A stretch of DNA of 35,286 bases. It comes from Anaeromyxobacter soli. Its GTDB lineage: Bacteria > Myxococcota > Myxococcia > Myxococcales > Anaeromyxobacteraceae. The notes beneath the pieces are model-generated. The model was not told the origin of the DNA and searched no databases. It was given only the letters and a program-made list of their open reading frames with translations. Below are positions 3,316 to 20,800 of the stretch, piece after piece; positions within the stretch are counted from its first letter, which is position 1, and every line of letters begins with the position of its first letter. The stretch spans positions 1 through 35,286 of the forward strand of contig NZ_JAKZLF010000044.1 of NCBI RefSeq assembly GCF_022808855.1, given 5' to 3'. The position numbers were made by a program, and so were the translations under genes.

Positions 3316-5001
3316 CTATCTCCAGCCCCACGCCTCCGCGCCGTCCGGGATCCTCGCGTACGTCCTGCCGCCGAGCGGCGCGTAGAACGTCGCGTCGAGC
3401 GGCAGCTGGGTGGTCGCGTCGAAGACGCCGACCTCGCCCCCATCCGCGCCGGCAGTGAAGGGCACGGTGACCTTCCCGTGCGCCGGCACGACCGTGCCGG
3501 CGGGGAGCGCGCTCTGCAGCCGATCGCGGAGGTCGGAGGTGAGGGTGAGGCCCGCGAGATCGCGCGGCGCGTCCTCGCGGTTGTAGAGCTCGAGGAACCC
3601 CGGCCCGATCGCGTTCACGACGAGGCCGCCCTCCCCACGGTGCCGCTCCCTGGGGATCTCGCCCCGGAGGAACCCGGTGCGGCGCGTGACGTACTCCTCG
3701 AGGAACCGCACCGACGCGGCGGCGAGCTCCTGATCCACCCAGGGATCCCGCTGCAGCGGTCCGGCGATGAGGGCGTGGAGCGCCTCGATGCGCGGGAACG
3801 CCTGCGCCTCCGAGAACACGCCGTCGAGCATCTTCTCGACCTCGTCGAGCACCCGGTTGCGGAGCGCGGGCGCGTCCCACAGGCGCTGGAACAGCACCAC
3901 GAAGGGCGGATGCGCGCTGACGCCGTAGCGCTGCGACTTGTCGGCCGCGACCCCCAGGGTGGCGGGATCGTAGAGCGTGTAGGTCGGGATCGCGTCGTGC
4001 CAGTTCGGCGTCGCCGTCGGACTGAGCCCGCGCCAGTACACGATCCGCGCGTTGTTGAGATCCCACGGCACGAAGGACCACTTGCCCGTCGCGGCGTCGT
4101 GGACGAGGTAGCTGCCCGAGTCGTCGATCCCCGACCAGCTGACGAGGATCGCGACCGCGTACATGCGGACCAGGCGATCGACGTCGAAGTGCCCCGCGAG
4201 CCAGGCGGGGAACTCGTGCTCCGGCGTCCGGTTGAGCTCGCGGAGGAACGTCCAGAGGTCGTCCCACGGCTGCGTCTCGTTCGTCTCCTTCTCCCACTGG
4301 CCCTGGTACGAGGCGGGAGGCGAGAGCTTCATCTCGCAGTCGCGGAGGCCGCAGCGGTAGGTCGTGGAGTCCGCGTCGAAGCCGTGATCGCGGAGGAAGT
4401 GCTTGTCGTCCGCCTCCTGCACCTCGACGTAGACGCCCTGGTGCTCCCCGTTCACGTCGAGCGTGATGAAGCGCCACCGCGGCGAGCGGACGCCGGCGCC
4501 CAGCAGGAGGCCGTAGCAGAACGGGTCGGAGAGGTAGCCGCCGTCGAGGTACTCGGCGAGGTAGTTGCGCGTCCGGGTGGGCCAGGATCCCGTCCCGGGC
4601 GCGCCGTCGTGGGTCTCGCCGCTCGTGGGGTGGCGCGTCTTCCAGCTGTGCTTCGGGTGCTCGCGCGCGCCGTCTCCGCGCTGCCGCAGCTCGACGTCGT
4701 ACCAGGTGCCGCCGAGGTACAGCCGCCCCGGCGCGTACACCTTGCTCCACAGCTGGTAGACGATGTCCGCCGTCGACTGCGGGAACGTGATCGCGAGCGG
4801 CTCGACCTTCTGCTGGAGGTCCGGCCAGCTCACCACCTCGGGGACGCGGTCCGTCGGGGTGCCGGGCGTGCCGCAGTCGTTGCACGTCGGCGGGGGCGGA
4901 TCTCCAGGAGGGGGATCCACCTTCGGGAGGGGCGGGGCGTCGGCGTTGCAGGCGAGGAGCACCGTGGCGAGGAACGCCACGAGGGCGAAGCGAGAGCTCA
5001 T
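3316..5001 (-). CDS. CotH-kinase-family lipoprotein with C-terminal lamin-tail domain
   Basis: A 561-residue protein starting at ATG 5001. A lipoprotein signal ends in LLAC with Cys18; +2 is Asn, so outer-membrane sorting is plausible. A proline-rich linker follows. The body (about 70-420) resembles CotH, an atypical protein kinase first known from spore coats: YDVELRQRGDG and HPKHSWK in the N-lobe, CGLRDCEMK, and the WDLNNAR motif (Asp about 314) in the place of the metal-binding aspartate. The last about 110 residues (GFLELYNRED, DLAGLTLTSD) look like a lamin-tail domain, common in secreted bacterial proteins. Two CxxC or CxnC pairs suggest disulfides or metal binding. It lies 148 bases after the phosphatase gene and is probably co-transcribed with it. 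CotH genes often sit near VTC and DUF4956 genes, which occur across the divergent promoter here. Its phosphorylation target is unknown. Confidence 0.83.
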   Translation of the reverse strand: MSSRFALVAFLATVLLACNADAPPLPKVDPPPGDPPPPTCNDCGTPGTPTDRVPEVVSWPDLQQKVEPLAITFPQSTADIVYQLWSKVYAPGRLYLGGTWYDVELRQRGDGAREHPKHSWKTRHPTSGETHDGAPGTGSWPTRTRNYLAEYLDGGYLSDPFCYGLLLGAGVRSPRWRFITLDVNGEHQGVYVEVQEADDKHFLRDHGFDADSTTYRCGLRDCEMKLSPPASYQGQWEKETNETQPWDDLWTFLRELNRTPEHEFPAWLAGHFDVDRLVRMYAVAILVSWSGIDDSGSYLVHDAATGKWSFVPWDLNNARIVYWRGLSPTATPNWHDAIPTYTLYDPATLGVAADKSQRYGVSAHPPFVVLFQRLWDAPALRNRVLDEVEKMLDGVFSEAQAFPRIEALHALIAGPLQRDPWVDQELAAASVRFLEEYVTRRTGFLRGEIPRERHRGEGGLVVNAIGPGFLELYNREDAPRDLAGLTLTSDLRDRLQSALPAGTVVPAHGKVTVPFTAGADGGEVGVFDATTQLPLDATFYAPLGGRTYARIPDGAEAWGWR

Positions 5002-5149
5002 GCCCAAGGGGCGCTGCAACGCGCGCGCCCCGAGCGCCGGCGTCACGGGCCCGAGTCGCGACCGGGGCTCGAGCGTCGCCCGGCGCAGCCGCGAACGGGG
5101 CCGGCCCCGCCCCTCGCGCGACGCGCGTCGAGCGCCACCGGAAGAGGCC

Positions 5150-6499
5150 TCAGCGCGCGCGCCGGCGCAGACGCCGGAGCGTCTCGCTCACGGCGAGGGC
5201 GGCGAACGCGGCGAGCCCGGCGCCCCCGCCGGCGCTGGCGCAGCCACCACCGCGGACGACCGGCCCGCCGGACTGCCAGCTCGAGCCGCCACCTCCGCCC
5301 CCGCCGGTTCCGGCGGGCGCCGGCGCGACGTCCTTCGCGATCGTGAACTCGTCGTGGACGACGCCGTCGTGGCGAACGGACTCCACGTGCATCGAGCCGC
5401 CGTCGACCGTCACCACCACGTGCTGACCGACCTTCTCCCGGTACGCGGTGAACGGCGCCACCGGCTTCTCGAAGTCGTAGAGCCAGTCGCCCCCGCCGCC
5501 GGTCGTCACGTACACCGGCGCGCCGGGGCGATCGTACGCGCCCTCCCCGGTCTTCACCGGCGCGCCGTCGCGCGAGGGCCAGGTGCGCTCGTACAGGTGG
5601 TTGTGTCCCTGGAAGACGACGTCCACGCCGTACTCCTGGAAGAGCGGCTCGAGCGCGCTCGCCACCTCCGGGAAGGAGCCGTACTTGCCGGTGGCGAGCA
5701 CCGGGCGGTGGAGCAGCGCGAGCTTCCACGGCGCCTGGGTGGCCGCGAGGTCTTCGCGCAGCCAGGTGACCATCGAGTCCCGCGTGCAGCCCGCGGTCGC
5801 GGCGTCCATCGGCGAGAGGCAGTTCGAGTCGAGCGCGACGACGTGCACGTCGCCCCAGTCAAAGGAGTAATAGCGCTCGCCGTCGGGCCCCTCCGGCAGC
5901 TCGAGCGCGTCGAGGTAAGGCTGGGCGTAGGGCAGCCGGTACTCGTGGTCGCCCGGCACCGGCCAGAACGTGGTCGAGGCGAGGAGCGCCGCCATCGGGC
6001 GGAACACCGCCGGATCCCAGTCCTCCGCCTTCCCGTCGGGATAGGCGTTGTCGCCCACGGTGAGCACCGCCGACACGCCGCGCGCGAGCAGCGCCGCCGT
6101 GTTTCCGGCCTGGATCGGGCCCTGGGTGCCGTAGTCGCCGATGACCCCGAGCACCGTCCGCTGGCCCTCGGCCGTGTCGGGCTCGCCGGGCGTGCGGAGG
6201 GTGCCCGTGGCGCGAACCGCTCCCTCGAGCTCGACGCGGTAGGAGACGACGCTCGCGGCGGGCAGGCCTTCGAGCCTGACCACGTGGTGCGCCGTGCCGG
6301 CGCTCTCCCCCACCACCGTCCCGCCGGCCCCGAGCTCCGCGACCACGCGCACGGCCGCCGGCACGTCGGTGTTCAGCACGACGAGCGAGGCGTGCGGCGC
6401 GGTCTGCTGCAGGAAGGGACCGCGCGTGATCGCGGCGGCCGACGCGAGGCCCGGCAGCACGAGCAGGGTGGAGAGGATCAGCCGGGCGAGCTGGCGCAA
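5150..6499 (-). CDS. Secreted purple-acid-phosphatase-like metallophosphoesterase with MYXO-CTERM-like tail
   Basis: A 449-residue exported enzyme. After the signal peptide (1-21) comes a fibronectin-like N-terminal domain (about 25-103), then a calcineurin-type core with all metal motifs: GD (121-122), GDNAY (149-153), GDHE (183-186), LLHRP with His264, and GHNH (298-301). This is the order of purple acid phosphatases. The tail is a Gly-rich spacer, a Gly-Gly-Cys motif near 418, a hydrophobic stretch and an Arg-rich end (RRLRRRAR), as in MYXO-CTERM or GlyGly-CTERM surface-sorting signals. I chose the TTG at 6499 because GAGGAG lies about 6 bases upstream and a clean signal peptide follows directly. 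An ATG at 6577 would add 26 charged residues. It likely releases phosphate from esters at the cell surface and fits the phosphate theme of the divergent operon. Confidence 0.88.
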   Translation of the reverse strand: MRQLARLILSTLLVLPGLASAAAITRGPFLQQTAPHASLVVLNTDVPAAVRVVAELGAGGTVVGESAGTAHHVVRLEGLPAASVVSYRVELEGAVRATGTLRTPGEPDTAEGQRTVLGVIGDYGTQGPIQAGNTAALLARGVSAVLTVGDNAYPDGKAEDWDPAVFRPMAALLASTTFWPVPGDHEYRLPYAQPYLDALELPEGPDGERYYSFDWGDVHVVALDSNCLSPMDAATAGCTRDSMVTWLREDLAATQAPWKLALLHRPVLATGKYGSFPEVASALEPLFQEYGVDVVFQGHNHLYERTWPSRDGAPVKTGEGAYDRPGAPVYVTTGGGGDWLYDFEKPVAPFTAYREKVGQHVVVTVDGGSMHVESVRHDGVVHDEFTIAKDVAPAPAGTGGGGGGGSSWQSGGPVVRGGGCASAGGGAGLAAFAALAVSETLRRLRRRAR

Positions 6500-6626
6500 G
6501 CAGGTCTCCTCGTCGGCCCCTTTGCGGCGCCGCGACGTTCGAGTGGGTGGGAGGACCTGGGGAAACAGGGAGGGCACCGCGATCCATCCCGACCCCGCGA
6601 GACAGGGCCATGGCGTTCAGCCGATG

Positions 6627-6640
6627 GGAAAAGCGTTTCC
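6627..6640. promoter_or_regulatory. Inverted repeat in the divergent intergenic region
   Basis: GGAAA and TTTCC arms flank a 4-base centre (AGCG). The repeat stands out as A/T-rich in a G+C-rich region. It lies between the divergent phosphatase and porin genes, about 80 bases upstream of the sigma-54-like element, where an enhancer-binding activator could sit. It could also be a LacI-type operator or chance. Confidence 0.3.
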
Positions 6641-6693
6641 ACTCAGCGGAACGTCCTGGGACCGCGCGGCCGCATGCCCGGGCGTCGAGCGGT

Positions 6694-6709
6694 GGGCACC
6701 CCCGTTGCA
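6694..6709 (+). promoter_or_regulatory. Sigma-54-like promoter of the VTC/DUF4956 operon
   Basis: GGGCAC (6694-6699), five bases, then TTGCA (6705-6709) match the -24/-12 consensus TGGCAC-N5-TTGCA at all but the first base. The key GG and GC are exactly ten bases apart. Transcription would begin near 6720, almost at the GTG start at 6723, so the message would be leaderless, or the true start lies slightly inside. Myxobacteria use many sigma-54 promoters. In such G+C-rich DNA a chance match remains possible. Confidence 0.45.
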
Positions 6710-6722
6710 CCGTGAGCGGTCC

Positions 6723-8012
6723 GTGAAACCGTTCCGTCACTCGCTCGTCACGGTCGCGCTCGCCCTCGCGGCCACCCTGGGGCTCCCCGGCGGCGCGTCC
6801 GCGGAGGAGCCCGCACCCCAGCCGGACCCCGCCGCGGGCGCGCCCGACGATGGGCGCGTGGACGCGCCGGCGACCCGCGGGGAGGTGGGCCCGGCGATGG
6901 AGCAGGCTTCGGCCACGCCGCCGAGCGAGCAGGCGCCCGCCGGCGGTGCGGAGGCCGTGCCCGGTCCCTCCGTCGTGCCCGCGAGCACCGCCGCCGCCCG
7001 GCCCGCGCGCGCGAGGCCGGTGCCGCTCGCGAGCGTGCCGCGCTCGCCGCCGACGCCGCCCGCGGCCGCGCCGCCTCCCGCCCAGACTCCCGCCGAGCCG
7101 GCGCGGGGGACGCGCATCACGGTGCCGCTCGACGTCGAGGTGCACGGGCGGCTCTACATGGGCGTCGCGGCCGACGAGCGCGACGACTGGACGCGCCGGC
7201 TCGACATGTCCTCCGCCCGCATCGGCATCGAGGCGCGCCTGCCCGGCGTGCTCACGGTGCTCGAGGCGGACGTCGCGTCGAAGACGCCCATCAAGGACGC
7301 GTACGCGCGCCTCGACGGACCGTTCTCGACGCGCCTGCAGGCCGGGCGCTTCAAGGCGCCGTTCTCGGCCAGGCAGCTCGAGTCGAGCTGGAAGCTGCCG
7401 CTCGTCGATCGCGGCCTCGTGAACGGCTACCTCGTGAAGGACAACGAGCTCGGAGGTCGCCGGCTCGGCGCGACCGCCGGGATCCGCCCCTGGCGCGGCC
7501 GGGTCGAGCTCGCCGGCGGGGTGTTCGCCGGCGAGCGGAGCGCGTTCGGCGGGGAGAACCGCGCGCAGGACCTCGCCGGTCGCGCGTCCGCGCGCCCCTG
7601 GAAGCCCCTCGAGCTGGGCGTGACCGCGTACCGCGCAGGCTCGAGCGATCCGCTCGTGCCGGTGCGCCAGGCCGCGAGCGCGTACGCGCAGCTCTCCGGC
7701 GGGCCGCTCGACGCGAGCGTCGAGGGCTTCGGCGGGAAGCTCGACGCCGGCGCCTTCACGGCGGGGACCGCGCTCGTCGGCTGGACCTTCAAGCTCGGGG
7801 AGGCGAGGCGGCTGCGGGTGACCCCCGTCGCGGGCGCGGAGGTGCTCGAGCTGCGCGGGACGACCCGCGGGGTCGGGTACTCCGCCATCGCAGGGGCGGT
7901 GCTGGCGTGGACCGAGGGACTCAAGGTGAAGGTTCAGGGAGAGCGCGCGCGCCGTCCCGGCGACGAGGTGCCCGGGAACGCGCTGGCGATGCAGATCGCC
8001 ACGAGGTTCTGA
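6723..8012 (+). CDS. Outer-membrane beta-barrel, phosphate-selective-porin (OprO/P)-like
   Basis: A 429-residue protein that opens the five-gene operon. A signal peptide (KPFRHSLV, hydrophobic core, GGASA, cleavage near 27) is followed by a disordered Pro/Ala-rich segment to about residue 130. The last about 300 residues alternate polar and hydrophobic positions as beta strands and end in Phe, the usual signal of an outer-membrane barrel. The motif AGRFKAPFSARQ (about 207-218), followed by LVDRGLVN, is typical of the OprO/OprP porin family, and the preceding strand (DAYARLDG) fits too. The GTG at 6723 has no clear ribosome site and lies next to a sigma-54-like promoter. The long Pro/Ala linker is unusual for this family. 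It may pass phosphate or polyphosphate through the outer membrane. The substrate is inferred, not shown. Confidence 0.75.
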   Translation: MKPFRHSLVTVALALAATLGLPGGASAEEPAPQPDPAAGAPDDGRVDAPATRGEVGPAMEQASATPPSEQAPAGGAEAVPGPSVVPASTAAARPARARPVPLASVPRSPPTPPAAAPPPAQTPAEPARGTRITVPLDVEVHGRLYMGVAADERDDWTRRLDMSSARIGIEARLPGVLTVLEADVASKTPIKDAYARLDGPFSTRLQAGRFKAPFSARQLESSWKLPLVDRGLVNGYLVKDNELGGRRLGATAGIRPWRGRVELAGGVFAGERSAFGGENRAQDLAGRASARPWKPLELGVTAYRAGSSDPLVPVRQAASAYAQLSGGPLDASVEGFGGKLDAGAFTAGTALVGWTFKLGEARRLRVTPVAGAEVLELRGTTRGVGYSAIAGAVLAWTEGLKVKVQGERARRPGDEVPGNALAMQIATRF

Positions 8013-8019
8013 GGACCCG

Positions 8020-8706
8020 ATGATCAACCAGGCGTTCGCCGAGACCGGCATCACGAACCTTCGCAGGGAGGTCAAGCTCCTGCTCGACCCGGACGAGGCC
8101 GAGTCGGTCGCCGGCGCGCTCGCGCGGTACGTCGCCCCGCTGGAGAGCCGCGTCGTGTCGGTCTACTTCGACTCGCCGCGCGGGACGCTCGCGCTGCGCG
8201 CCGCGGCCTCCCCGGACGACTGCGTGAAGGTCCGCGCCAAGGCGTACGCGCCCGATCGGAGCGACGCCCCCGGGCGCGTGGTGCTCGAGGTGAAGCGGGA
8301 GCGCGCCGGGATCACGAGCAAGGAGCGGATCTGGCTCCCCCGCGGCGAGGTGCGCAGGGTGGTCGCCCGCTCGCTCGCCTCCGCGTTCGGGGCGCTCTCG
8401 CCCGTGGTCGCGACGTCGTACCGGCGCCGCGTGTACCAGGCCACCGCGCACTGGCGGGTGACGCTCGACGACGCCCTCACGTTCCACGCGGCGAGCTGGT
8501 CGCTCTTCTCGGCGGAGGCCCCGCCCTGGCACGGCACCCTCGGACCCGCGTTCGGGGCCGAGCCGCGCGTCGTGGTCGAGCTGAAGTTCGGGCCGGAGGG
8601 GCTGCCGCGGTGGCTCGCTCACCTCGGCCGGGCGCGCGGCACGACCTACTCGAAGTTCGCGGCGGCGATCGGGCGCGGCGCCGACGACCGCTCCACGGGG
8701 GCATGA
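8020..8706 (+). CDS. VTC-domain polyphosphate polymerase-like protein
   Basis: A 228-residue soluble protein that is essentially one VTC domain, the tunnel fold of yeast Vtc4, which makes polyphosphate from ATP on the cytosolic side of a membrane. The basic and acidic residues expected to line the tunnel are present in order: ExK (E17, K19), SVYFD (47-51), KVRAK (70-74), LEVKRE (89-94), K101/R103, SYRRR (133-137), RVTLDD (146-151), VELKF (186-190) and YSKF (210-213). No SPX domain or membrane segment is present, so membrane attachment would come from a partner, probably the DUF4956 protein. ATG 8020 follows GAGGA (8011-8015) and lies 7 bases after the porin stop. The stop is 3 bases before the next start. 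Family assignment is firm; the enzyme activity is inferred. Confidence 0.85.
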   Translation: MINQAFAETGITNLRREVKLLLDPDEAESVAGALARYVAPLESRVVSVYFDSPRGTLALRAAASPDDCVKVRAKAYAPDRSDAPGRVVLEVKRERAGITSKERIWLPRGEVRRVVARSLASAFGALSPVVATSYRRRVYQATAHWRVTLDDALTFHAASWSLFSAEAPPWHGTLGPAFGAEPRVVVELKFGPEGLPRWLAHLGRARGTTYSKFAAAIGRGADDRSTGA

Positions 8707-8709
8707 CGG

Positions 8710-10413
8710 GTGTTCGTCTCTTTCGAAGGCATCGACGGCAGCGGCAAGACCACCCTCTCGAACCTGGTCTGCGAGCGGCTGCGGGCGGCCGGTCACGAGG
8801 TCCTGCACGCGCGCGAGAAGGGGGTGCTCGCGTCCGGCGTGGCGCGGCGCGTCCGCGAGCTGACGCGGGACGCGCGCCTGCTCGAGATGTCGGCCCGGAC
8901 CGAGCTCTTCCTGAACCTCGCGCGGGAGACGCAGCAGCTCGACGAGATCGTGCGGCCCGCGCTCGTGGACGGCCGGCTCGTCGTCGCCGACCGCAGCCTC
9001 CACTCGCTCGTCGCGCTCTCCGCGGCGGGGCGTGGGCTGCCGCGGGACGAGGTCGAGGCGGCGGTGCGCGTCGGCGCGGGCGGCACGTGGCCGGATCTCG
9101 TCGTGCTCGTCGACGTCGATCCGGACCTGGCGCGGCTCCGCAAGCGCATCGGCAAGATCCTCGAGGGCCGCGACGGCGACGCCGAGTCGCGGAAGGGGCT
9201 CGCCGGCGCTGGCCTGCAGGTGCGCGTCCGGCGGCACCTCCGGGCGGAGGCCGAGCACGACCCGGCGCGCTGGATCGTGGCGTCCAACGAGGGGCGGCCG
9301 CTCGCGGCGCTGGCCGACGAGGTGACGGACGCGATCCTCGCGCGCCTCGCGCCGAGGACCACGCACGCCGCGCGGGCGCGCCGGGCCTCGGCCGGCGCCC
9401 GTGCCGCCGCGCTCGAGGCGGAGGCCTCGCCGGAGCGCGTCGGCGAGCGGTTCCGCGCCGCGATCGCCGCGCTCGCCGGGCCGGAGCCGCACCTCGCCGC
9501 GTTCCTCCTCGCCGGCATCCCGGGCGCCGCGGAGCACGCGCTGCGCGTGTCGCTCGCGGCGCGCGCGCCCCGCCTCGTCGCGCGGAGCCTCCAGGGGCTC
9601 GCCGATCCCGGCGCCTTCGCGCTCCGGCGCGCGCTCGCCGGAGAGGCTCCCGGCGACGTCCTCGCGAGCCTCGGCGACGACCCTTCTCCGGAGGCGATGG
9701 CGCTCCGCGAGCTCCTGTTCGAGGCCGCGCCCGAGGCGGCCCTGGCCGGGCTCGCCCGGAACGGCACGCCGGCCGCCTGGGAGCTGCGGGAGCGCGGGCT
9801 CGAGCGCGGCGCGCTCGGCGCGGTCCTCGACGGGCTCGGCGCCGTGGACGATCCCGACGCCTGGGCGCTCCGCGGGGAGGGGCTGCGCCGCGAGCTCGTG
9901 CTCCCCGTCGCGCGGAGCCTCGCCGGGCTCGCCGGCCCGCGCGCCGACGCGCTCCGGGTCGCGCTCGCCGACCGCGATCGGCTGGCCGCGCTGCGCTCCA
10001 CGGCGGAGGTGGACGGCCCGGTGTCGCGCGAGCTGCGGGAGCGGCTCTTCGAGCACGCCGCGAAGCGCGTGCTGCGCTCGCTCACCGGGATCGACGCACC
10101 GTACGCGTGGGCGCTGCGCGAGCGGGCGCTGCCCGCGACGAAGGAGGCGCTCGACTCGGTGGACGGCATGGACCATCCGCGCGCCTGGGCGCTCCGGGAG
10201 GCCGGCGCGGAGCTGTGGCCCACGACCGCGGTGTCCTCGCTGCGCGAGCTCGCGCTCCGCGAGCGGGGCCGCGCGCTCGTGGCGCGGGCGCTCCGCGCGG
10301 CGCCCGCGAGCCTCCCGGTGCTGCGCAACGCGCACGCGGCGTTCTCCCGCGCGGCGCTCGCCGCCGCGGCGGCGGCACCGGTGGGGCAGGAGGAGGCGGC
10401 ATGTTCGATCTGA
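8710..10413 (+). CDS. Thymidylate-kinase-like P-loop enzyme fused to nine ~27-residue repeats
   Basis: A 567-residue fusion. Residues 1-225 resemble dTMP kinase: P-loop GIDGSGKTT (7-15), DRSLHS (94-99) where TMK has DRY, LVDVDP (133-138), and an Arg-rich lid (about 142-163). The TMK dTMP-binding motif REPG is changed to REKG (35-38), so the substrate may differ. PPK2 polyphosphate kinases share this P-loop fold, which makes a polyphosphate-linked nucleotide kinase plausible here. Residues 269-511 hold nine degenerate units with the core DP-x-AWALRE-x-AL, probably helical hairpins; I know no named family for them. GTG 8710 has a G-rich site about 8 bases upstream and follows the VTC stop by 3 bases. 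The 3' end overlaps the DUF4956 gene by 13 bases, implying coupled translation. At about 200 residues, a housekeeping Tmk would lack the repeat half, so this is probably not the housekeeping Tmk. Confidence 0.82.
   Translation: MFVSFEGIDGSGKTTLSNLVCERLRAAGHEVLHAREKGVLASGVARRVRELTRDARLLEMSARTELFLNLARETQQLDEIVRPALVDGRLVVADRSLHSLVALSAAGRGLPRDEVEAAVRVGAGGTWPDLVVLVDVDPDLARLRKRIGKILEGRDGDAESRKGLAGAGLQVRVRRHLRAEAEHDPARWIVASNEGRPLAALADEVTDAILARLAPRTTHAARARRASAGARAAALEAEASPERVGERFRAAIAALAGPEPHLAAFLLAGIPGAAEHALRVSLAARAPRLVARSLQGLADPGAFALRRALAGEAPGDVLASLGDDPSPEAMALRELLFEAAPEAALAGLARNGTPAAWELRERGLERGALGAVLDGLGAVDDPDAWALRGEGLRRELVLPVARSLAGLAGPRADALRVALADRDRLAALRSTAEVDGPVSRELRERLFEHAAKRVLRSLTGIDAPYAWALRERALPATKEALDSVDGMDHPRAWALREAGAELWPTTAVSSLRELALRERGRALVARALRAAPASLPVLRNAHAAFSRAALAAAAAAPVGQEEAACSI
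9514..10242 (+). repeat. Nine tandem ~27-codon repeats in the kinase fusion
   Basis: At protein level the units begin at GIPGAAEHALR, GLADPGAFALR, GDDPSPEAMALR, ARNGTPAAWELR, GAVDDPDAWALR, GLAGPRADALR, TAEVDGPVSRELR, GIDAPYAWALR and GMDHPRAWALR. Each continues with a charged stretch and a hydrophobic VLxSL-like helix. The units have diverged in DNA, so they are old repeats rather than recent duplications. They cover residues 269-511 of the gene at 8710-10413. Confidence 0.75.
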
Positions 10414-10922
10414 CCACGGCGTCCGCGGAGGTGGACCTCGCCGCGCTGCAGGTGGGCGAGCTCGCGCCGCGGTTCGCCGCCGCGCTCCTCATCGGCTCGG
10501 TGCTCGCGCTGCGCCCGTGGCGTTACCTCATGGGCCGGCGGCCGCCGCGCCCGGAGATGGCGCAGGCGCAGATCCTGCTCTGCGTCGCCGCCACGATCAT
10601 CACCATCGTCATCGGCAACAGCCTCGCGAAGGCGTTCGGGCTCGTCGGGCTCGGGAGCTTCGTGCGGTTCCGCTCCGGCCTCAAGGACCCGCGCGACGCG
10701 GCCGTCCTCTTCCTCGTCATCGGGCTCGGCATGGCGTGCGGTCACGGCAGCCTCCCGCTCGCCTTCTCCGGCGCGGCGTTCGCCTGCGTGCTCCTCGCCG
10801 GGCTCGATCTGTTCAAGGTCCCCGACGCGCCGGCGGCCCCCGAGGCCGACGCGCGCCGATCCGAGGCGCCGCTCGAGATCCGGCCCGCCCCGGCGCCCGC
10901 ACCCTCCAAGGAGATCGCCTGA
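10401..10922 (+). CDS. DUF4956 membrane protein
   Basis: A 173-residue inner-membrane protein with three to four hydrophobic segments. These are near residues 26-42, 54-77, 93-113 and 115-135. Between the second and third lies the family signature GLVGLGSFVRFRSGLKDPRD, followed by FLVIGLGMACG. DUF4956 genes are recurrent neighbours of bacterial VTC-domain genes, so I infer that it anchors the polymerase or forms the path for the growing polyphosphate chain. The Arg/Lys-rich RFR...KDPRD loop suits an anionic polymer. The C-terminal tail (from about 140) is Pro/Ala-rich and soluble. ATG 10401 has AGGAGG a few bases upstream inside the 3' end of the kinase gene. The stop shares its last base with the next ATG (10922). 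Confidence 0.88.
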   Translation: MFDLTTASAEVDLAALQVGELAPRFAAALLIGSVLALRPWRYLMGRRPPRPEMAQAQILLCVAATIITIVIGNSLAKAFGLVGLGSFVRFRSGLKDPRDAAVLFLVIGLGMACGHGSLPLAFSGAAFACVLLAGLDLFKVPDAPAAPEADARRSEAPLEIRPAPAPAPSKEIA

Positions 10923-11590
10923 TGCCTCGCCGCCTGCTCCCCCTCGCCGCCGCCGTCGCGCTCGCCGCCTGCGGCGGGGGCGCCATCACGAACGACCCGA
11001 CGCCGACCCCCTCCGGACAGAAGAACCTCGCGCCGCTCGCCACCGGAGCGAGCTGGCGGTACCGCGTCACCGATCCGCTCCGCGACGCGCCGTTCGAGAA
11101 GACGGTCCAGGTCGTCGGCCCGCAGCAGGTGCCCGGGTCCACCGCGTCGGCGATCCTGGTGGTCGACACCGAGCCCACGCAGGAGGAGCGCGGCTGGCTC
11201 GTCGAGAAGGACGGCTTCGTCCTGCGCGCCCGCGAGGAGGACCGGAAGGCTGGCCTGCTCGTGCGCACCACCACCTGGTCCCCCGCCGCGCCGAAGACCC
11301 TCTCCGCGTCGGCGCCGGTCGGCTCGGTGTACGAGGCGACCGTGCTCGAGCACGAGGAGCACGCGGACGGGACCTTCACGGAGAAGAACCAGACCTACCG
11401 GTTCACGGTGATCGCGAAGGACGTGCAGGTGACCGTGCCTGCGGGCACCTTCACCTGCCTGCAGGTCGCGCGCGTCCGCCTGGACAAGATCGGCAGCGAC
11501 CGCACCTACTGGCTCGCACCCGACGTCGGGAAGGTCCGCGAGGAGGGCGAGCGCACCGAGGAGCTCGTCGCCTACACGCCCGCGCCGTGA
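10922..11590 (+). CDS. Predicted lipoprotein, last gene of the VTC operon
   Basis: A 222-residue protein with a short lipoprotein signal ending at ALAAC (Cys17); the +2 Gly suits outer-membrane sorting. The mature part begins with a low-complexity Thr/Pro/Ser stretch, then a beta-rich domain with GASWRYRVTDP, VPAGTFTCLQVARV and a WLAPDVGKVREE motif near the C-terminus. This pattern recurs in periplasmic or surface proteins of unknown function with a DUF3108-like fold; I do not recognise a specific family. ATG 10922 overlaps the DUF4956 stop by one base (TGATG), so translation is coupled and the protein probably belongs to the same envelope complex. Confidence 0.8.
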   Translation: MPRRLLPLAAAVALAACGGGAITNDPTPTPSGQKNLAPLATGASWRYRVTDPLRDAPFEKTVQVVGPQQVPGSTASAILVVDTEPTQEERGWLVEKDGFVLRAREEDRKAGLLVRTTTWSPAAPKTLSASAPVGSVYEATVLEHEEHADGTFTEKNQTYRFTVIAKDVQVTVPAGTFTCLQVARVRLDKIGSDRTYWLAPDVGKVREEGERTEELVAYTPAP

Positions 11591-11791: not shown

Positions 11792-11821
11792 TTGACCCCC
11801 TCGCGAGGCGAGCCCTATACT
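11792..11821 (+). promoter_or_regulatory. Sigma-70-type promoter of gltI
   Basis: TTGACC (-35, 11792-11797), an 18-base spacer and TATACT (-10, 11816-11821) form a near-consensus promoter in otherwise very G+C-rich DNA. Transcription would begin near 11828, giving a leader of about 45 bases before the TTG start at 11873. A naive reading would take the TTG of this -35 box as the start codon of the gene. Confidence 0.72.
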
Positions 11822-11872
11822 TCCGGGCCGTCGGCGCTTTCCCGGGCCCTCCTCTCGCCGAGCGTACCCACC

Positions 11873-14800
11873 TTGAGCGCATCCTCCCTGGACGAGCAGA
11901 TCCGGTCGCACCTCGAGACGCTGGAGGCCGCGCCCGGCGATCCCGCCGCGTTCGAGGCGCTCGAGGCGCTCTACGAGCAGGACGCCCGCTGGGAGGACCT
12001 CGTCTCGCTGTACGAGGGGCGAGCGCGCCTCGTCCCCGAGCCCGGCGCGCCGCTCCTCGCCAAGGCGGCGGCGCTCGCGACGACGAAGCTCCGGAACGTG
12101 GCCCGGGCGGAGGAGCTCTACCAGCAGCTCCTCCGGGCCGATCCGGCCGAGCCGGGGGCGCTCGCCGCGCTCACCCAGCTCCTCGAGGATCGCCAGGACT
12201 GGCCGGCCCTCGCCGCGGTCCTCGAGCGCGCCGCCGGGGCGGCGGAGCCCGCCGAGGCGGCGCGGCTCACCCTGCGCCTCGGCGTGCTGCACGAGGAGCG
12301 GCTCGGGCGGAGAGATCGCGCGGCGCTCCTGTACGCGCGCGCCTGTCGCCAGGACCCGCGGCTGGCCGAGGCGCGCGCCCGGGGCGTCGCTGGCTTCGCG
12401 GCGCTCCGCCACTTCGCGCAGGCGAAGCGGCTCCTCGACGAGGCGCGGGACGCGGGCGCGGACGGGCCGACGCTCGCCGCGGAGTACGCGCTCCTCGCCG
12501 CGCGGCTCGTGGACGAGCCCCTCGAGCACGGCCTCGCCACCGACGCGGTCATCGAGGCGATGGCGCTCGACCGGGCCGCGCCCGGCGGGCCGGAGATCCG
12601 CGAGCGCCTGCGGGCCTTCCCGCGCGCGTGGCGCGACGAGGCGCGCACGCTGGAGGCGCGCGTCCCGAAGGCGCGCGATCGCCGCGAGGCGGCCGCGCTC
12701 CAGCTCCGCCTGGCCCAGCTCCACCTCGCCTACGATCCCGAGGGCGTGAAGCGCGCGCTCGAGCGGCTCGACCGCGCCTGGGCGCTCCTGCCGGGCGATC
12801 CCGCCGCCCTCGACCTCCTCGCCCGCGTGCACGCCGAGAAGGGCGATCACCGCGCGCACGCCGACGCCCTCGCGCGGCTCGCGACCAAGACCCGCGACCG
12901 CGCCGCCCTGGTGGCGCTGCACCTCGAGATGGCGCGCGTGGATGTGATCCGCTTCGCCGACGCGGAGAGCGCGCTCGACGCGCTCGGGAAGGCGCTCGCG
13001 CTCGATCCCGCCTGCGAGGCGGCCGCGCTCCAGGCCTTCGAGCACCACGCCGACGCAGGCCGGTTCGAGGAGGCGCTCGCGACCCTCGAACGGCACCTCG
13101 CCGCCGCGCCGCCGAAGGCCGCGCACGCGCCGCTGCGGGTCCGCGCGGCGCAGCTCGCCCGCGAGCGGCTCGAGGATCCGGCCCGCGCCCGCCGCCACCT
13201 CGAGGCGGCGCTCCGCGCCGATCCCGGCCACGCGCCCGCTGCCGCGGCGCTCGCGCCGCTGCTCGCGGACGCGGGGGAGTGGACCGCGCTCGCCCAGGTG
13301 CTCGAGGCCTCCGTGGGCCTGGAGCGCGATCGCGCCGAGCGGATCCGGCTGCTCGAGCGCCTCGCCGACGTCCAGCAGGAGCGGCTCGGCCGGCCGAAGG
13401 ACGCCCTCCGGACGCTCTCGCGCGCGCTCGCGCTCGACCCGTCGCGGGCCGCGACGCGCAAGGCGATGGAGGGCGCCGCCGCGCGCGCCGACGCCTACCT
13501 CGACCTCGTGCGCGCCTACCGCGCCGCCGCCAGCGCGGTGCAGGACGACCTCCGCGCGCGGAAGACCCTGCTCCGCCGCGTGGCGGAGATCCTCGATCGC
13601 GACCTCGGCAAGCCCGAGGAGGCGGTGGGGGCCTGGCGCGCGCTCTCGGAGCTCGACCTCGAGGACCGCGGGGCGACCGCCGCGCTCGAGGCCTGCATGG
13701 CGCGCGCGGGCCAGCAGGTGGAGCTCGCGCAGGAGCTCGAGCAGCGCCGCGACGCGGCGGCGGGCGACGAGCGGCGCGCGCTCTCGGCGCGGCTCGGCGC
13801 GCTGTGGCTCGACGCCGCCCAGCCCGAGCGAGCCGCGGCGGCCTGGCGCGACGCGCTCGCCGCCGGCGAGGACGACGCGGGGCTCTGGGGCCTGCACGCG
13901 GCGCTCGAGGCGGTCGGCACCCCCGCGGCCGCGGAGGAGCGGGCCTCCGTCCTCGGCCGGCTCGCGGCGCGCAAGCAGGGCGCCGAGCGCGCCGCGCTCG
14001 AGATCGCCCGCGCCGAGCTCCTCGCGGATCCGCTCGGCAGGCACGCCGAGGCCGCGGAGGTCGCGCTCGCCGTGCTCTCGGCGGGCGGCCTCGGGCCCGC
14101 GCAGCAGGCCGACGCGATCGCGCTCCTCGAGCGCCTCCTGGAGCGGGGCGCGGAGCCGCTCCGCATCGCGCAGGCGCTCGCGCCGGCGTACGCGGCGGCC
14201 GGCGACGTCGGCCGGCAGGCGGCGGCGCTCGAGCGGATCGCGCAGGCGCTGCCCGGGACCGACTCGCGCGAGCGCGCCCGCCATCTCCTCGACGCCTCCG
14301 CGCTCCGCGCGGAGCGGCTCGGCGACGCCCGCGGGGCGCTCTCCGCGGCGCTCGCGGCCGTCCGCGCCTGCCCGCAGCACGGGGAGGCGCGCCGCCGCGC
14401 CGAGGTCCTCGCCGCCGGCGTGGGCGCGGAACGCGAGCTCTTCGAGGTGCTCGTCGAGGCCGCCGGGAAGCTCGCCGGCCGCCCCGAGGAGGAGCTGCCG
14501 CTCAGGCTGCGCGCCGCGGCGATCGCCGAGGAGGATCTCGGCGCCTTCGACGACGCCGCGCGGGAGCTCCGCCGCGCGCTCGAGCTCGCCCCGGAGGACC
14601 CCGCCGTCCTCGCCGCGCTCACCCGCGCGGCGCTCGCCGGCGAGCGCTGGACCGACGCGGCGGCGCTGCTCCAGGATCGCGCCGGGCGCGCCGCCGGGCC
14701 GGAGCGGGCGGCGCTGCTCGCGCAGCGCGCCGCGGTCCTGCACGACGGGCTCGGGGACCCTGCCGCCGCGGCCGCGGCGCTGCGCGAGGCGCTCGCCATC

Positions 14801-17800
14801 GCCCCGGAGGACGGGCGCGCGCGGCTTCTCGGCCGCCTGGCTGCCGCGCTCGGAGCCGCGGGCGACGCGGCCGGGCGCGCCGAGGCCCTCGCGGAGCTGT
14901 CGCGCACGGCGGCCGATCCGGCCGAGGCGGCGCGGGCTGCGCTGGAGAGCGCGCGGATCCAGGACGATCTCGGCGACGCCCCCGCCGCCGCGGAGCGGCT
15001 CGGCGCGGCGCTCGCGGCGAAGCCCGACGACCCGGCGATGCTCGCCGCCCTGGAGGCGCACCTCGACGGAACGAGCCCCGCGGCCGTGGCCGCCGCGGCC
15101 CGCGCGCTCGCGCGCCACCCCGACCCGCGCCGCCGCGCCCGCGCCCACGAGGCCGAGGCGCGCTTCGCCGCCGACCCCGCCGCCCGGGCCGCCGCCTGGC
15201 GCGCCGCCGCGCGGGTCCACGACCAGGAGCTGCACCAGGTCTCGCTCGCGTTCCTCGCGATGGCCGAGGCGGTGCGCGCCGCGCCCGCAGACGCCGCGCA
15301 CCGCGCCGAGCTCCGGCGCCTCGCCGCAGAGGCGCAGGAGCAGGAGGCGTGCGCCCGCGTGTACGACGCGATCGGCGAGAGCGCGCCGCCGGAGCTGCGC
15401 GCCGCGATCTTCCGCGAGCGCGCGGAGCTCGCCGACGGCCGCAAGGACCCGGACCGCGCCGCCGAGGGGTGGAGCCGCCTCCTCGCCGCCGCGCCCGGCG
15501 ATCGCGAGGCCCTCTCCGCCCTGCGCCGCCTGCACCGCTCGCGCGAGCGGTGGGGCGAGCTCGCCGACGTCTGCGCCGAGATCGCGCGCCGCGCCACCGA
15601 CCCCGCGGCGCGGGAGGACGCGCTGCGCGAGGAGGCCGCCGTCGCCGAGGGCAAGCTCGGCGACCCGGATCGCGCCGCGGCCGCCTGGAGCGGCGTGGCC
15701 GCCCTCGCCCCCGAGGACGCGGAGGCGGGCGCAGCGCTGGAGCGGCTGCACGAGCGGCTCGACCGGCCCGCGGACCTCGCCGCCGCGCTGGAGCGGCGCC
15801 TCGCGCGCGGCTTCGATCCGGAGGCCGCCGCGCGCCTCGCCGAGCTCCGCCGCACGCGCCTCGACGATCCGGCGGGGGCGCTCGAGCTGCACGGCGAGCT
15901 CCTCCGCCGCGATCCGGCCCGGATCGCCTCGCGCGACGCGATCGTCGCGCTCGCGGCGACGCCGGGCGAGGTCGGCCGGGACGCGCTCGACCTCGCGGAC
16001 GCCGCGCTCACCCAGGCCGGCGAGCACGCCCAGCGCATCGCCGCGCGCGAGGGGCGCCTCGCGGCGATCCAGGATCCCGCCGAGCGCGCCGGGCTCCTCG
16101 CCGAGATCCGCGCCGTGATGGAGCGCGATCTCGGCGAGCCCGCGATGGCCTTCGTGGCGGCCTGCCGCGCCTTCTCCGAGGGCGGCGGCGCGCGCGCGGG
16201 GGTCGCGGAGGACCTCGAGCGGCTCGCCCGCGCGACGGGGAACGAGGACGCGCTGTGCGACGTGTGGGAGGAGGCCGCCCGGTCGGAGGCTCCGGACGAG
16301 GGGCTCGCCCTGCGCCGGAAGGCCGCGCGCCTGCGCACCGAGCACGGCGGCGGCGCCCCGGCGATCCAGGCGTGGCGGGGGGTGCTCGAGTCCGTCACCG
16401 ACGACGCGGAGGCGCTCGAGGCCCTCGAGGCGCTCTACGCAGCGGCGCGCTCCGCGTCCGAGCTCCTGGAGCTCGCCCGGCGGCGCGCGGCGCTCGCCGA
16501 GGGGCCCGAGCGCGCCGAGCACCTGCTCCACGCGGCGCGCGTGGCCGAGGAGCTCGGGGATCCGGCCGCGGCGCTCGAGGCGTACCGCGCCGCCCGGGCC
16601 GAGGCGCCCGCGGACGTCGCGGCGCTGGAGGGGCTCGAGCGGCTCCTGCCGCGGGGCGACGCGGAGTGGCTCGAGGTGGTCGCCGCCCTCGCGCACGGCG
16701 CCGCCGGGGATCCCGGGCGGCGGGTGCCGCTGCTCCTGAAGCGCGCCGCGGCCCTGGAGGCCGGCGCCGACGCGCGCCCCGCCATCGAGGCGTACGCCGA
16801 CGTGCTCGCCGAGCGGCCGCGCGATCCGGGCGCGGTCGCCGGGCTCGAGCGGCTCCTCGCGCGGCCGGACGCGCGCGGCGACGCGGCGCGCGTGCTCGAG
16901 GACGTGCACCGCGCAGCCGGCGACGCGCGGAAGCTGGCGGCGCTCCTCGAGGTGCGGCTCGAGACGTCGGACGACGCCGAGCGGGTGCCGCTCCTCGCCG
17001 AGATCGCGGCGCTCCAGGAGCGGCTCGGGGACCGCGGGCGCGCCTTCGGCGCGAAGCTGCGAGAGCTGCAGGGCGCGTTGAGGCGGGGCGCGGACGCGCC
17101 CGGTGCCCGCGCCGAGCTCGAGCGGCTCGCCGCGGCGACGGGCGCCTGGGAGGAGCTCGCCGGCGCGTTCGAGGACGCGCTCGGCACGCCGGGGCTCTCC
17201 CCGCAGGTCTCGCTCGAGCTCGAGCGGCGCCTCGCGGTGATCTCCGCGGATCGGCTCGGCCGGCCCGACGCCGCGGCGCGCTGGTACGAGAAGATCGCGG
17301 AGGTCGCGCCGAGCGCCGAGGTGCTGGGCGCGCTCGCGCGCGTTTACCGGAAGCTCGGCGCGCACCGCGAGCTGGCGCGGACGCTCGGGCGGCTCGCCGA
17401 CGTCGCGCCGGCCGCGGTCGCACGCAAGGAACTCCTGCTCGAGGTGGCGAAGATCATGGCTGAGCAGCTCTCCGACCGGGACGGCGCGGTCGCCGCTTAC
17501 CGGAAGATCCTGTCGGTCGATCCCGAGGACCCGAACGCCCTGCGCCTGCTCGGAAAGCTGCTCGGCGCCGCCGAGAGGTGGGACGAGCTCGCCACCGTGC
17601 TCTCGCGCGAGGTCGCCGTCGCCGACCGGCAGCCGAACCTGGTCGCCGAGGCCGCCGAGCTGCGCTACCGGCTCGGGCGGATCCGCCACCAGCGGCTCTC
17701 GGACGCGGACGGCGCGCTCGACTGCTACCGCGCGGTGCTCGAGAAGGTGCCGCGCCACCCCGCCGCGCTCGCCGCGCTCGAGGACCTCGCCCGCGGGAGC

Positions 17801-20800
17801 GGGCCCGCCGCGGTCGAGGCGGCGATGCTCCTCGAGCCGATCTTCGCGGCCGAGGGCGAGCACGCGAAGGTGATCGAGGTGCTGGAGGCGCGCGCGGCCC
17901 ACCAGACCGAGCCCGCCGCCCGCGCGGCGCTGCTGCGCCGGGTCGCGGCCGTGTACGGCGGTCAGCTCAAGAACGCGGAGATGGCGTTCCTCGCCGCGAG
18001 CCGGGCCCTCGCCGCCGACCCCGACGCGCTCGAGTCGCTCGAGCTCGCCGCGCGGCACGCGGAGGCGGCCGGCCTCGAGGACGAGCTCGGGGCGCTGCTC
18101 CAGGAGCACGCCGATCGCGCGCTCGACCCCGCCGCGCGCGCCGAGTACCAGCGGCGCATCGCGCGGCTCGCGAACGACGATCCGCGCCGCGCCGCCGAGG
18201 CCTGGCAGCGGCTGCTCGACCTCGCGCCGGACGACCGGGAGGCGACCGCGGGGCTCGTCGCCGCCCTCCGCGAGGGGGGAGAGCCCGAGGCGCTGGCGCA
18301 GGCGCTGCGGCGCGCGATCGCCCAGGAGGAGTCGCCCGACGGCCTCGCCGCGCTCCTCGCCGAGCTCGCCGCCGTGCAGGACGAGCGGCTCGGCGACCTC
18401 GCCGGCGCGATCCAGAGCCTGCGCCGGCTGCTGGACGTCGCCCCGCACGACCGGGACGCGCTCGCGCGCATGGACCGGCTCTGCGTCCGGACCGAGCGCT
18501 GGGTGGACCTCGGCGAGGTGCTCGCGCGCGAGATCGACGCCGCGGCCGCCGCCGGCGACGACGCGGCGCTCGTGCCGCTGCGCCAGCGGCTCGCCGAGCT
18601 GAAGGAGACGCGCCTCGTGGACCGGGAGGGCGCGCTCTCCCTCTACGAGGAGGTGCTCGCGGCCCGCCCGGATCACCCGGAGGCGATCGCCCGGCTGGAG
18701 GGGATGCTCCAGAAGGATCCCGCGAACGCGCGCGCGGCGACCATCCTCGAGGGGGCGTACGGCCGCGGCGGCGACTCCGCCAAGCAGGCCGCGGTGCTCG
18801 AGCTGCGCGCCGCGGAGCGGCCGGACCCGCTCGAGCGCAAGGCGCTCTACGTGCAGCTCGCGGAGCTCCGCGAGCGGCAGCTCGGCGACCCGCAGCTCGC
18901 GTTCCTGGCGCTCTGCAAGGCGTTCCGCGAGGACCCTGCCGACGGTGCGCTGCGCGCCCGCATGGACGCGCTCGCCGAGACGAGCGGGCACGACGAGGAG
19001 CTCGCGGCGATCTACGAGGACGAGCTCGACCGGCTCCCGCCGGTGGAGACGGCCCAGGTCGCCCTCCGGCTCGGCGCGCTCTACGAGGAGAAGCTCGCCG
19101 AGCCCTCCCGCGCGGCGGGCTTCTACCGGAAGGCGGTCGCGCTCGACGAGAGCTCCGCGGCGCAGGCGCTGCCCGCCCTCGAGCGGCTCTTCCAGCGGCT
19201 CGAGCAGTGGGAGGACCTCGCCGACGTGCTCGCGCAGCGCGCCCACGTCGCGCAGGGGGCGGACCGGGTGCAGACCCTGTTCCGGCTCGGCCAGCTGTGC
19301 GAGGAGCGGCTCGCCGCGCCGGACCGCGCCGCCGAGGCCTACGAGGCCGCGGCCGCGGCCGACCCGCGCCACGTCGCCTCGCTCCGCGCCCTCGAGGAGC
19401 TCTACGAGGCGGCCGGCCGGCGCGAGGACCTCTTCCGGAACCTCGCCGCGCAGCGGGTGGCGCCCGGCGACGCCGCGGCGCGCGAGCGCGTGCTCGCCAA
19501 GATGGCCGCGCTGGCGGCCGACCTCGGCCACCTCGACGAGTCGGTCGCGCTCTGGAAGGAGCTCCTCGCCGCGCGGCCGCGCCACGACGGCGCGCTCGCC
19601 GCGCTCGAGGACCTCTACGAGCGGCTCGAGCGCTGGCAGGACCTCGCCCAGCACCTGCGCCTGCGCGTGCAGGCCACCGTGGACCGGCGGGAGATCGCCC
19701 GGCTGAACGACAAGCTCGGGGCGATCCTCGGCTCGCGCCTCGGCGACCTCGCGCAGGCGACCCAGTCGTACAAGGCGGTGCTCGACTCGGATCCGAAGAA
19801 CCGCCGGGCGCTCGAGGCGCTGCGCGACATCCACGCGGCGCAGGGCGACGTGGAGGCGCTCGCAGGCGTCTACCGCCGCCTCGTGCCGGTGCAGGAGGAC
19901 GCGGCGGGCGTGAAGCGCGTGCGCCTCGAGCTCGCCGAGGTGCTGCTCCGCGCCGGCAACAAGCGCGAGGCCATCGAGCAGGCGAAGCTCGCGTTCGACA
20001 TCGAGCCGCACGGGGCCGACGAGCTGGTGCGGATCGAGGAGGTGTTCCGGGCGGCCGGCGCAGCCGCCGAGGGCGTGCGGGCGGCGGAGGCCCGCGCGGC
20101 GCTCCTCGCCGCGCAGGGCGGGCCCGCCGAGGCGATCCCGGCCTGGCTGGCGGTGGCCGAGCTCTGGAAGCAGCAGCGTCGCCCGGACGCCGCCGCCTCG
20201 GCGCTCGACAAGGTGCTCGAGCTCGACCCGGCCAACCGGACCGCCTACGACGCGCTGCGCGCCATCCACCAGGCGGCCGGCAACTGGCGCGCGTTCACGC
20301 GGGCCTGCGACGTCTTCGCCCCCAACGTGGTCGATCCCGCCGAGAAGGTCGCGCTCCTGAAGGAGGTCGCGGGCGTCCACGAGAAGAAGCTCGGCCAGAA
20401 GGAGATGGCCTTCCTCTCCTGGTGCCGCGCGCTCGGGGAGGCGCCCGGCGACGCCGAGGCGCTCGAGGCGGCGGAGCGGCTCGCCGACGAGACCGAGGCG
20501 CACGAGGAGCTCGCCGGGGTGCTCGAGCAGGTCTCCGAGGAGGCGCGCGGGATCGTGCGCGCGCGGCTCATGCTCCGGCTCGGCAAGCTGCGCGACGAGC
20601 GGCTCGACGACCTGGAGGGCGCGGAGGCCGCCTTCCGCCGCGCGCTGGAGGCGGATCCGGCGAGCCCGGAGGCCCTCGAGGCGCTCACCGAGCTCTTCAA
20701 GCGGCGCGGCCGCGTGCGCGACCTCGTCATCACCCTCGAGCAGAAGCTCGAGGCGGCGGCGGGGCTCGAGGAGAAGAAGGCGACCCTGCTCGAGGTCGCG

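Follow-up and report, generated by a model that had tools for sequence, protein, structure and literature searches.

What process brings a VTC-family protein, a kinase of composite architecture, a porin and secreted phosphatase- and kinase-like proteins together in one bacterial gene set is the question raised by a locus of Anaeromyxobacter soli. In the window, by which we mean the whole stretch of 35,286 nucleotides that was analysed, the open reading frame list and the sequence place seven genes at positions 3316-11590 (Table 1). The five plus-strand genes encode, in order, a porin, a VTC protein, a fusion of a thymidylate-kinase-like domain with a solenoid, a DUF4956 protein and a lipoprotein, and are separated by 7, 3, -13 and -1 bases. 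These spacings, the number of genes and the 223-base divergent region are all as given in the original prediction. The phosphatase coordinates assume a TTG start chosen from the signal peptide, as the longest open reading frame extends to 6577. The genome has one copy each of VTC and DUF4956, five CotH genes and two Metallophos_C proteins.

Table 1. Features of the locus, with positions counted from the first letter of the window
Feature	Position	Strand	Basis
CotH-family secreted kinase-like lipoprotein	3316..5001	-	lipobox VLLACNA; PF08757
Purple-acid-phosphatase-like metallophosphoesterase, secreted	5150..6499	-	PF00149 + PF14008
Divergent intergenic region, 223 bp	6500..6722		sequence
Porin	6723..8012	+	Porin_O_P above cut-off; AlphaFold2 barrel; Foldseek OprP
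VTC/triphosphate-tunnel protein, predicted polyphosphate polymerase	8020..8706	+	PF09359; profile match to Vtc4 3g3q
Kinase fusion: thymidylate-kinase-like P-loop kinase + alpha-solenoid	8710..10413	+	Pfam, AlphaFold2, VIA
DUF4956 (MgtC-like) membrane protein	10401..10922	+	PF16316
Small lipoprotein, weakly DUF3108-like	10922..11590	+	lipobox LAACG; sub-cut-off matches

Family knowledge and the neighbourhood evidence presented below lead us to favor, with a probability of roughly 0.55, a conserved cell-envelope polyphosphate or phosphate module equipped with a dedicated P-loop phosphotransferase. The original prediction of the module's function is supported in part. Within this reading, we infer polyphosphate as the product, its export, the docking of the components, their enzymatic activities and the acceptor of the kinase.

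Conservation of the gene set

The order porin-VTC-kinase-DUF4956-lipoprotein recurs in four more members of the genus and throughout Myxococcaceae. The small lipoprotein adjoins DUF4956 in most Myxococcaceae, and its match is absent from two complete relatives within the genus (L010 and L011). The five-gene unit is a real, conserved operon. Chance clustering of the module genes is ruled out by this conservation, with the order kept in other families and the kinase adjacent to VTC. The expectation that all seven genes would stay together in relatives was borne out for the five-gene core and, in most Myxococcaceae, for the phosphatase, whose gene there follows the core on its own strand instead of diverging from it. 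It held less widely for CotH, which occupies the same divergent place in L008-L011 and otherwise accompanies the core in L058 and, some distance away, in L057; CotH is missing from most of the Myxococcaceae core clusters examined. In L008 (8243-10567), the phosphatase and CotH seemingly share one frame, and the phosphatase match is broken in two, as a frameshift or an assembly gap would produce.

Directly 3′ of the module lies a gene for a giant TPR-type repeat protein of about 4,120 residues (11792-24157, plus strand). It is present in eight of nine genomes of the genus and adjoins the module wherever the module is present. Three members of the genus (G003, G004 and the incomplete genome G007) carry this gene but lack the module in the upstream sequence examined, which spanned about 13 kb in G003 and only 2 kb in G007; the module is therefore patchy within the genus. 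In G006, the CotH-phosphatase pair sits on a 5.4-kb contig, and the absence of the core may reflect an assembly gap. Many Myxococcaceae also hold a second, diverged cluster, usually in the order VTC-porin-kinase-DUF4956 (L054, L055, L095, L097, L098, L100 and L103), and several of these second clusters have CotH upstream.

A near-constant feature of these neighborhoods is that the kinase-solenoid is accompanied by VTC. When 193 Myxococcota genomes were searched with a single kinase-solenoid protein, 98 loci matched, a few of them only partially, and 92 of the 98 have a VTC match within 1.34 kb (median gap 43 bp), although these counts represent related genomes rather than independent events. 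Among the six exceptional loci, one (G125) does have VTC by tblastn, making it the 93rd, and two others are fragments. The converse association is weaker, since the kinase-solenoid is absent nearby at 30 of 122 VTC loci. Among 84,980 species genomes scanned, 51 strong kinase-solenoid loci emerged, which come from Myxococcota and Planctomycetota, and VTC lies within the examined stretch at 46 of them, again counted over related genomes. The adjacency thus reaches Planctomycetota, and gene orders vary: VTC-porin-kinase-DUF4956, porin-kinase-lipoprotein-VTC-Na/Pi cotransporter, VTC-cotransporter-kinase and VTC-kinase-DUF4956-four CotH all occur. Because it survives such rearrangement, the adjacency argues for functional coupling of the kinase-solenoid with VTC.

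Several observations were made along with this survey. An apparent VTC::kinase gene fusion in L108 was rejected, as the joint open reading frame is a reading-frame overlap. Two second-copy kinase-solenoid matches (G098:C4:134922-136601 and G100:C24:157092-158780) contain one in-frame TGA each. Six planctomycete VTC-kinase pairs (L093, L096, L099, L105, L106 and L118) are preceded by a conserved secreted protein of about 480-550 residues, which has no confident Pfam match and is possibly a porin equivalent.

A predicted thymidylate-kinase fold with replaced pocket residues

The kinase fusion matches Pfam Thymidylate_kin (E 1.9e-19) and then continues for about 350 unmatched residues. Its AlphaFold2 model (pLDDT 91, pTM 0.87) has a thymidylate-kinase fold in residues 1-215 and an all-alpha solenoid in residues ~241-555, the latter composed of two-helix repeats with a 27-residue period and leading helices every 26-28 residues. 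Comparison with TMK 3hjn by VIA gave Z 24.8 and rmsd 1.4 over 187 aligned residues, and the structure matches for the whole fusion model were filled by thymidylate kinase. This likeness in fold and sequence, together with an NCBIfam dTMP kinase score of 83.1 bits that lies just short of the 83.25-bit cut-off, is what would be expected of an ordinary thymidylate kinase residing in the cluster by accident.

The nucleotide pocket speaks otherwise. We compared 30 fused proteins with six canonical thymidylate kinases, using the thymine contacts named in the literature (PMC3619541, PMC10610096). The fused proteins retain the P-loop, DR motif and lid arginine, as in the thymidylate kinases 3hjn and 4edh. 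However, the thymine-binding arginine (Mtb Arg74/Sa Arg70) is Asp or Glu in all 30, the thymidylate-kinase glutamine is kept in none and is never Gln or Asn, and the stacking phenylalanine is Asn or Tyr in every case. In addition, the lid sequence R-[FMI]-E has become R-K-G, and invariant or near-invariant basic residues have appeared at R72, K/R145 and K/R146. A separate, higher-scoring dTMP kinase gene is present elsewhere in the genome. On the pocket residues and this separate tmk gene we reject an ordinary dTMP kinase; its accidental presence in the cluster, which the near-constant adjacency to VTC in two phyla also contradicts, is therefore highly improbable. Where a myxobacterial genome is annotated with two dTMP kinases, the name of the second may be wrong.

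Because the thymine-contact residues are replaced, we infer an acceptor other than dTMP. Replacing the arginine by an acidic residue would favor bases that carry an exocyclic amine, such as adenine or cytosine; Asp or Glu at this site of the pocket is thus compatible with adenine, and also with cytosine or another acceptor. The basic lid (R-K-G plus R-K/R-K/R), which along with the solenoid sets the fusion apart from thymidylate kinases, would suit a polyanion. A link to polyphosphate is possible because thymidylate kinases share common ancestry with PPK2 polyphosphate kinases (PMC8776046), but a Pfam search of the fusion extending to E 1 reported no PPK2 family. The original prediction that the fusion links polyphosphate or nucleotides to the process is plausible, given that its domain is modelled as a P-loop kinase in which dTMP recognition is lost.

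VTC, its likely membrane partner and a proposed route to the outside

The VTC protein of the window matches Pfam VTC (E 2.4e-16). A phmmer search of the PDB with this single sequence returned nothing, and a search with a VTC profile gave yeast Vtc4 (3g3q, E 3.5e-18) as the best solved match. The protein shares with Vtc4 the tunnel domain and most of the catalytic and tunnel residues, the equivalences being K200-K19, R264-R72, K281-K92, K294-K101, R361-R136, E426-E187, K428-K189 and K458-K212 (Vtc4 first). Across 17 aligned VTC proteins, K19 is nearly invariant and the other mapped positions are invariant, as are Y49, D51, E90, R103, R146 and D150. The tunnel residues, on whose presence the original prediction depended, are therefore largely in place, although R266 is Lys74, a conservative change, and K455 is Thr209.

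This pattern bears on whether the protein makes or breaks phosphate chains. Vtc4 Lys458 is catalytic (PMC4641920), and E426-x-K428 of Vtc4 occupies the site of E-x-E in the hydrolase AtTTM3. An alternative role for the window protein would be that of a triphosphatase or phosphate-sensing tunnel protein, in which case the operon would regulate phosphate uptake and scavenging and the kinase would serve as a nucleotide-state switch. Related tunnel enzymes do hydrolyze tripolyphosphate (PMC4641920), R266 and K455 are changed, and the neighbors include genes for a porin, a phosphatase and a Na/Pi cotransporter, as such a role would lead one to expect. Moreover, in our own reading of the pairing, Glu17 on the first strand falls where AtTTM3 has an acidic residue (Glu4) and Vtc4 has Thr, which makes it a mixed sign for a polymerase. 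Nevertheless, the family shows no variation at the two positions of polymerase type, Lys428 and Lys458, and it is Vtc4, not a hydrolase, that is the best solved match. We thus regard a triphosphatase or sensor as unlikely. Searches of the open-access literature recovered no paper that measured whether a VTC protein from bacteria makes polyphosphate. PPK1 is encoded elsewhere in the genome, and VTC is consequently not the only possible source of polyphosphate.

Unlike Vtc4, the window protein has no fused SPX or membrane domain, and its membrane partner is likely the separate DUF4956 protein (PF16316, E 1.1e-10). At 173 residues, the latter is without the C-terminal extension of its Myxococcaceae orthologues (about 235 residues), and the alignable core is conserved. 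Among the 51 strong kinase-solenoid loci, 34 have DUF4956 and nine have a Na+/phosphate cotransporter (PF02690), with no stretch carrying both, in a split that follows lineage. As the two never co-occur, it is suggested, but only suggested, that they fill one membrane slot and that this slot concerns phosphate.

The remaining proteins are those of the outer envelope. The porin scores above the cut-off for Porin_O_P (PF07396; 24.3 bits versus 20.9, E 2e-5), and its AlphaFold2 model combines a proline/alanine-rich N-terminal stretch (residues ~25-130) with a C-terminal beta-barrel from residue 137. Foldseek ranks OprP (2o4v) first and OprO among the top five for this barrel. It resembles these phosphate and polyphosphate porins in family and barrel; however, identity is at most 15% and general porins score nearly level, so that the match is weak and not specific and phosphate selectivity is a lead from a model, not a result. 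The phosphatase matches Metallophos (E 7e-12) and Metallophos_C (E 8e-8), and CotH matches its full domain (E 4.1e-75, model positions 1-322 of 322). The lipoprotein encoded at the 3′ end of the core resembles DUF3108-like families only below the Pfam cut-off.

These components could be combined into the favored envelope module as follows. Cytoplasmic VTC, together with DUF4956, would polymerize polyphosphate from ATP, and DUF4956 would carry either the chain or phosphate through the inner membrane. A Na+/phosphate cotransporter would take the place of DUF4956 in sister clusters, and its presence there points to phosphate. The porin and lipoproteins would connect the periplasm to the outside, where the secreted phosphatase and CotH may have exported phosphate, or material that is phosphorylated, as their substrates. 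The solenoid-kinase would be a repurposed phosphotransferase of the thymidylate-kinase fold that no longer recognizes dTMP and that most likely transfers phosphate between a nucleotide of the adenine type and either polyphosphate or the VTC reaction, and the solenoid would dock it to the VTC/membrane complex.

Relation to known VTC-DUF4956-CotH loci

Part of this gene set has been seen before. In Gram-positive bacteria, VTC, DUF4956 and CotH occur together next to Pel genes (PMC7112168), and SIR_1592-1594 of Streptococcus intermedius form a further such trio at pel (PMC12345266). Deletion of the DUF4956-like and CotH genes there altered Pel levels and aggregation, and no change in aggregation is reported upon deletion of the VTC gene (PMC12345266), which counts against the favored module. 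A third paper (PMC2879425) describes a VTC-CotH set in C. perfringens NELoc-2 with a neighboring gene labelled tubulin/FtsZ, which is presumably DUF4956. In all of these, VTC, a DUF4956/MgtC-like membrane protein and a secreted CotH adjoin one another, as they do in the window and in its relatives within the genus. The Gram-positive loci differ in having pel or other glycan genes, and the passages describing them mention neither a kinase-solenoid nor a porin or phosphatase. The locus studied here belongs instead to a Gram-negative envelope, and in this version VTC has the kinase-solenoid as its constant partner, with CotH optional. Hence, the statement that the full set is undescribed agrees with the literature searched, but its VTC-DUF4956-CotH part was already on record. 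What is new is the kinase-solenoid added to the known VTC-DUF4956(-CotH) set: searches of the literature, including those for VTC with thymidylate kinase or Myxococcus, recovered no description of the fusion.

These precedents lend some weight to a different function, namely modification or regulation of a surface polymer such as exopolysaccharide or spore coat, for which VTC-DUF4956-CotH would sense or supply phosphate and polyphosphate would be at most an intermediate. The association of the trio with Pel and the reported deletion phenotypes are consistent with this function, and so are the recurrence of CotH and of a PPDK_N-type secreted kinase-like lipoprotein in the clusters and the four consecutive CotH genes in L111. 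However, of the genes close to the core that were examined in the window, none was recognized as a polysaccharide synthase; a porin, a phosphatase and a Na/Pi cotransporter suggest that phosphate is concerned, and most of the Myxococcaceae clusters inspected lack CotH. We therefore hold a surface-polymer role to be a tentative possibility. A more elaborate and quite unlikely variant of the phosphate module is that exported polyphosphate is the extracytoplasmic phosphate donor, where ATP is scarce, for secreted kinases, either CotH or, in sister clusters, the PPDK_N-type lipoproteins, with the cytoplasmic solenoid-kinase coupling nucleotide charge to synthesis. If true, this would constitute a polyphosphate-powered extracytoplasmic phosphorylation system.

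The gene set ties bacterial VTC, whose role is unsettled, to envelope genes and to an undescribed kinase that is its near-constant partner in both phyla. It thereby opens a specific way to test for a second, membrane-coupled bacterial polyphosphate route besides PPK, and to test the role of the VTC-DUF4956-CotH trio. As a separate observation, the secreted lipoproteins with a PPDK_N domain (pyruvate-phosphate-dikinase ATP-binding), an odd place for an ATP-using domain, lie near several clusters, for example at 4357-6312 in L107 and 4493-6607 in L113, and also in L054, L059, L061, L094, L098 and L119.
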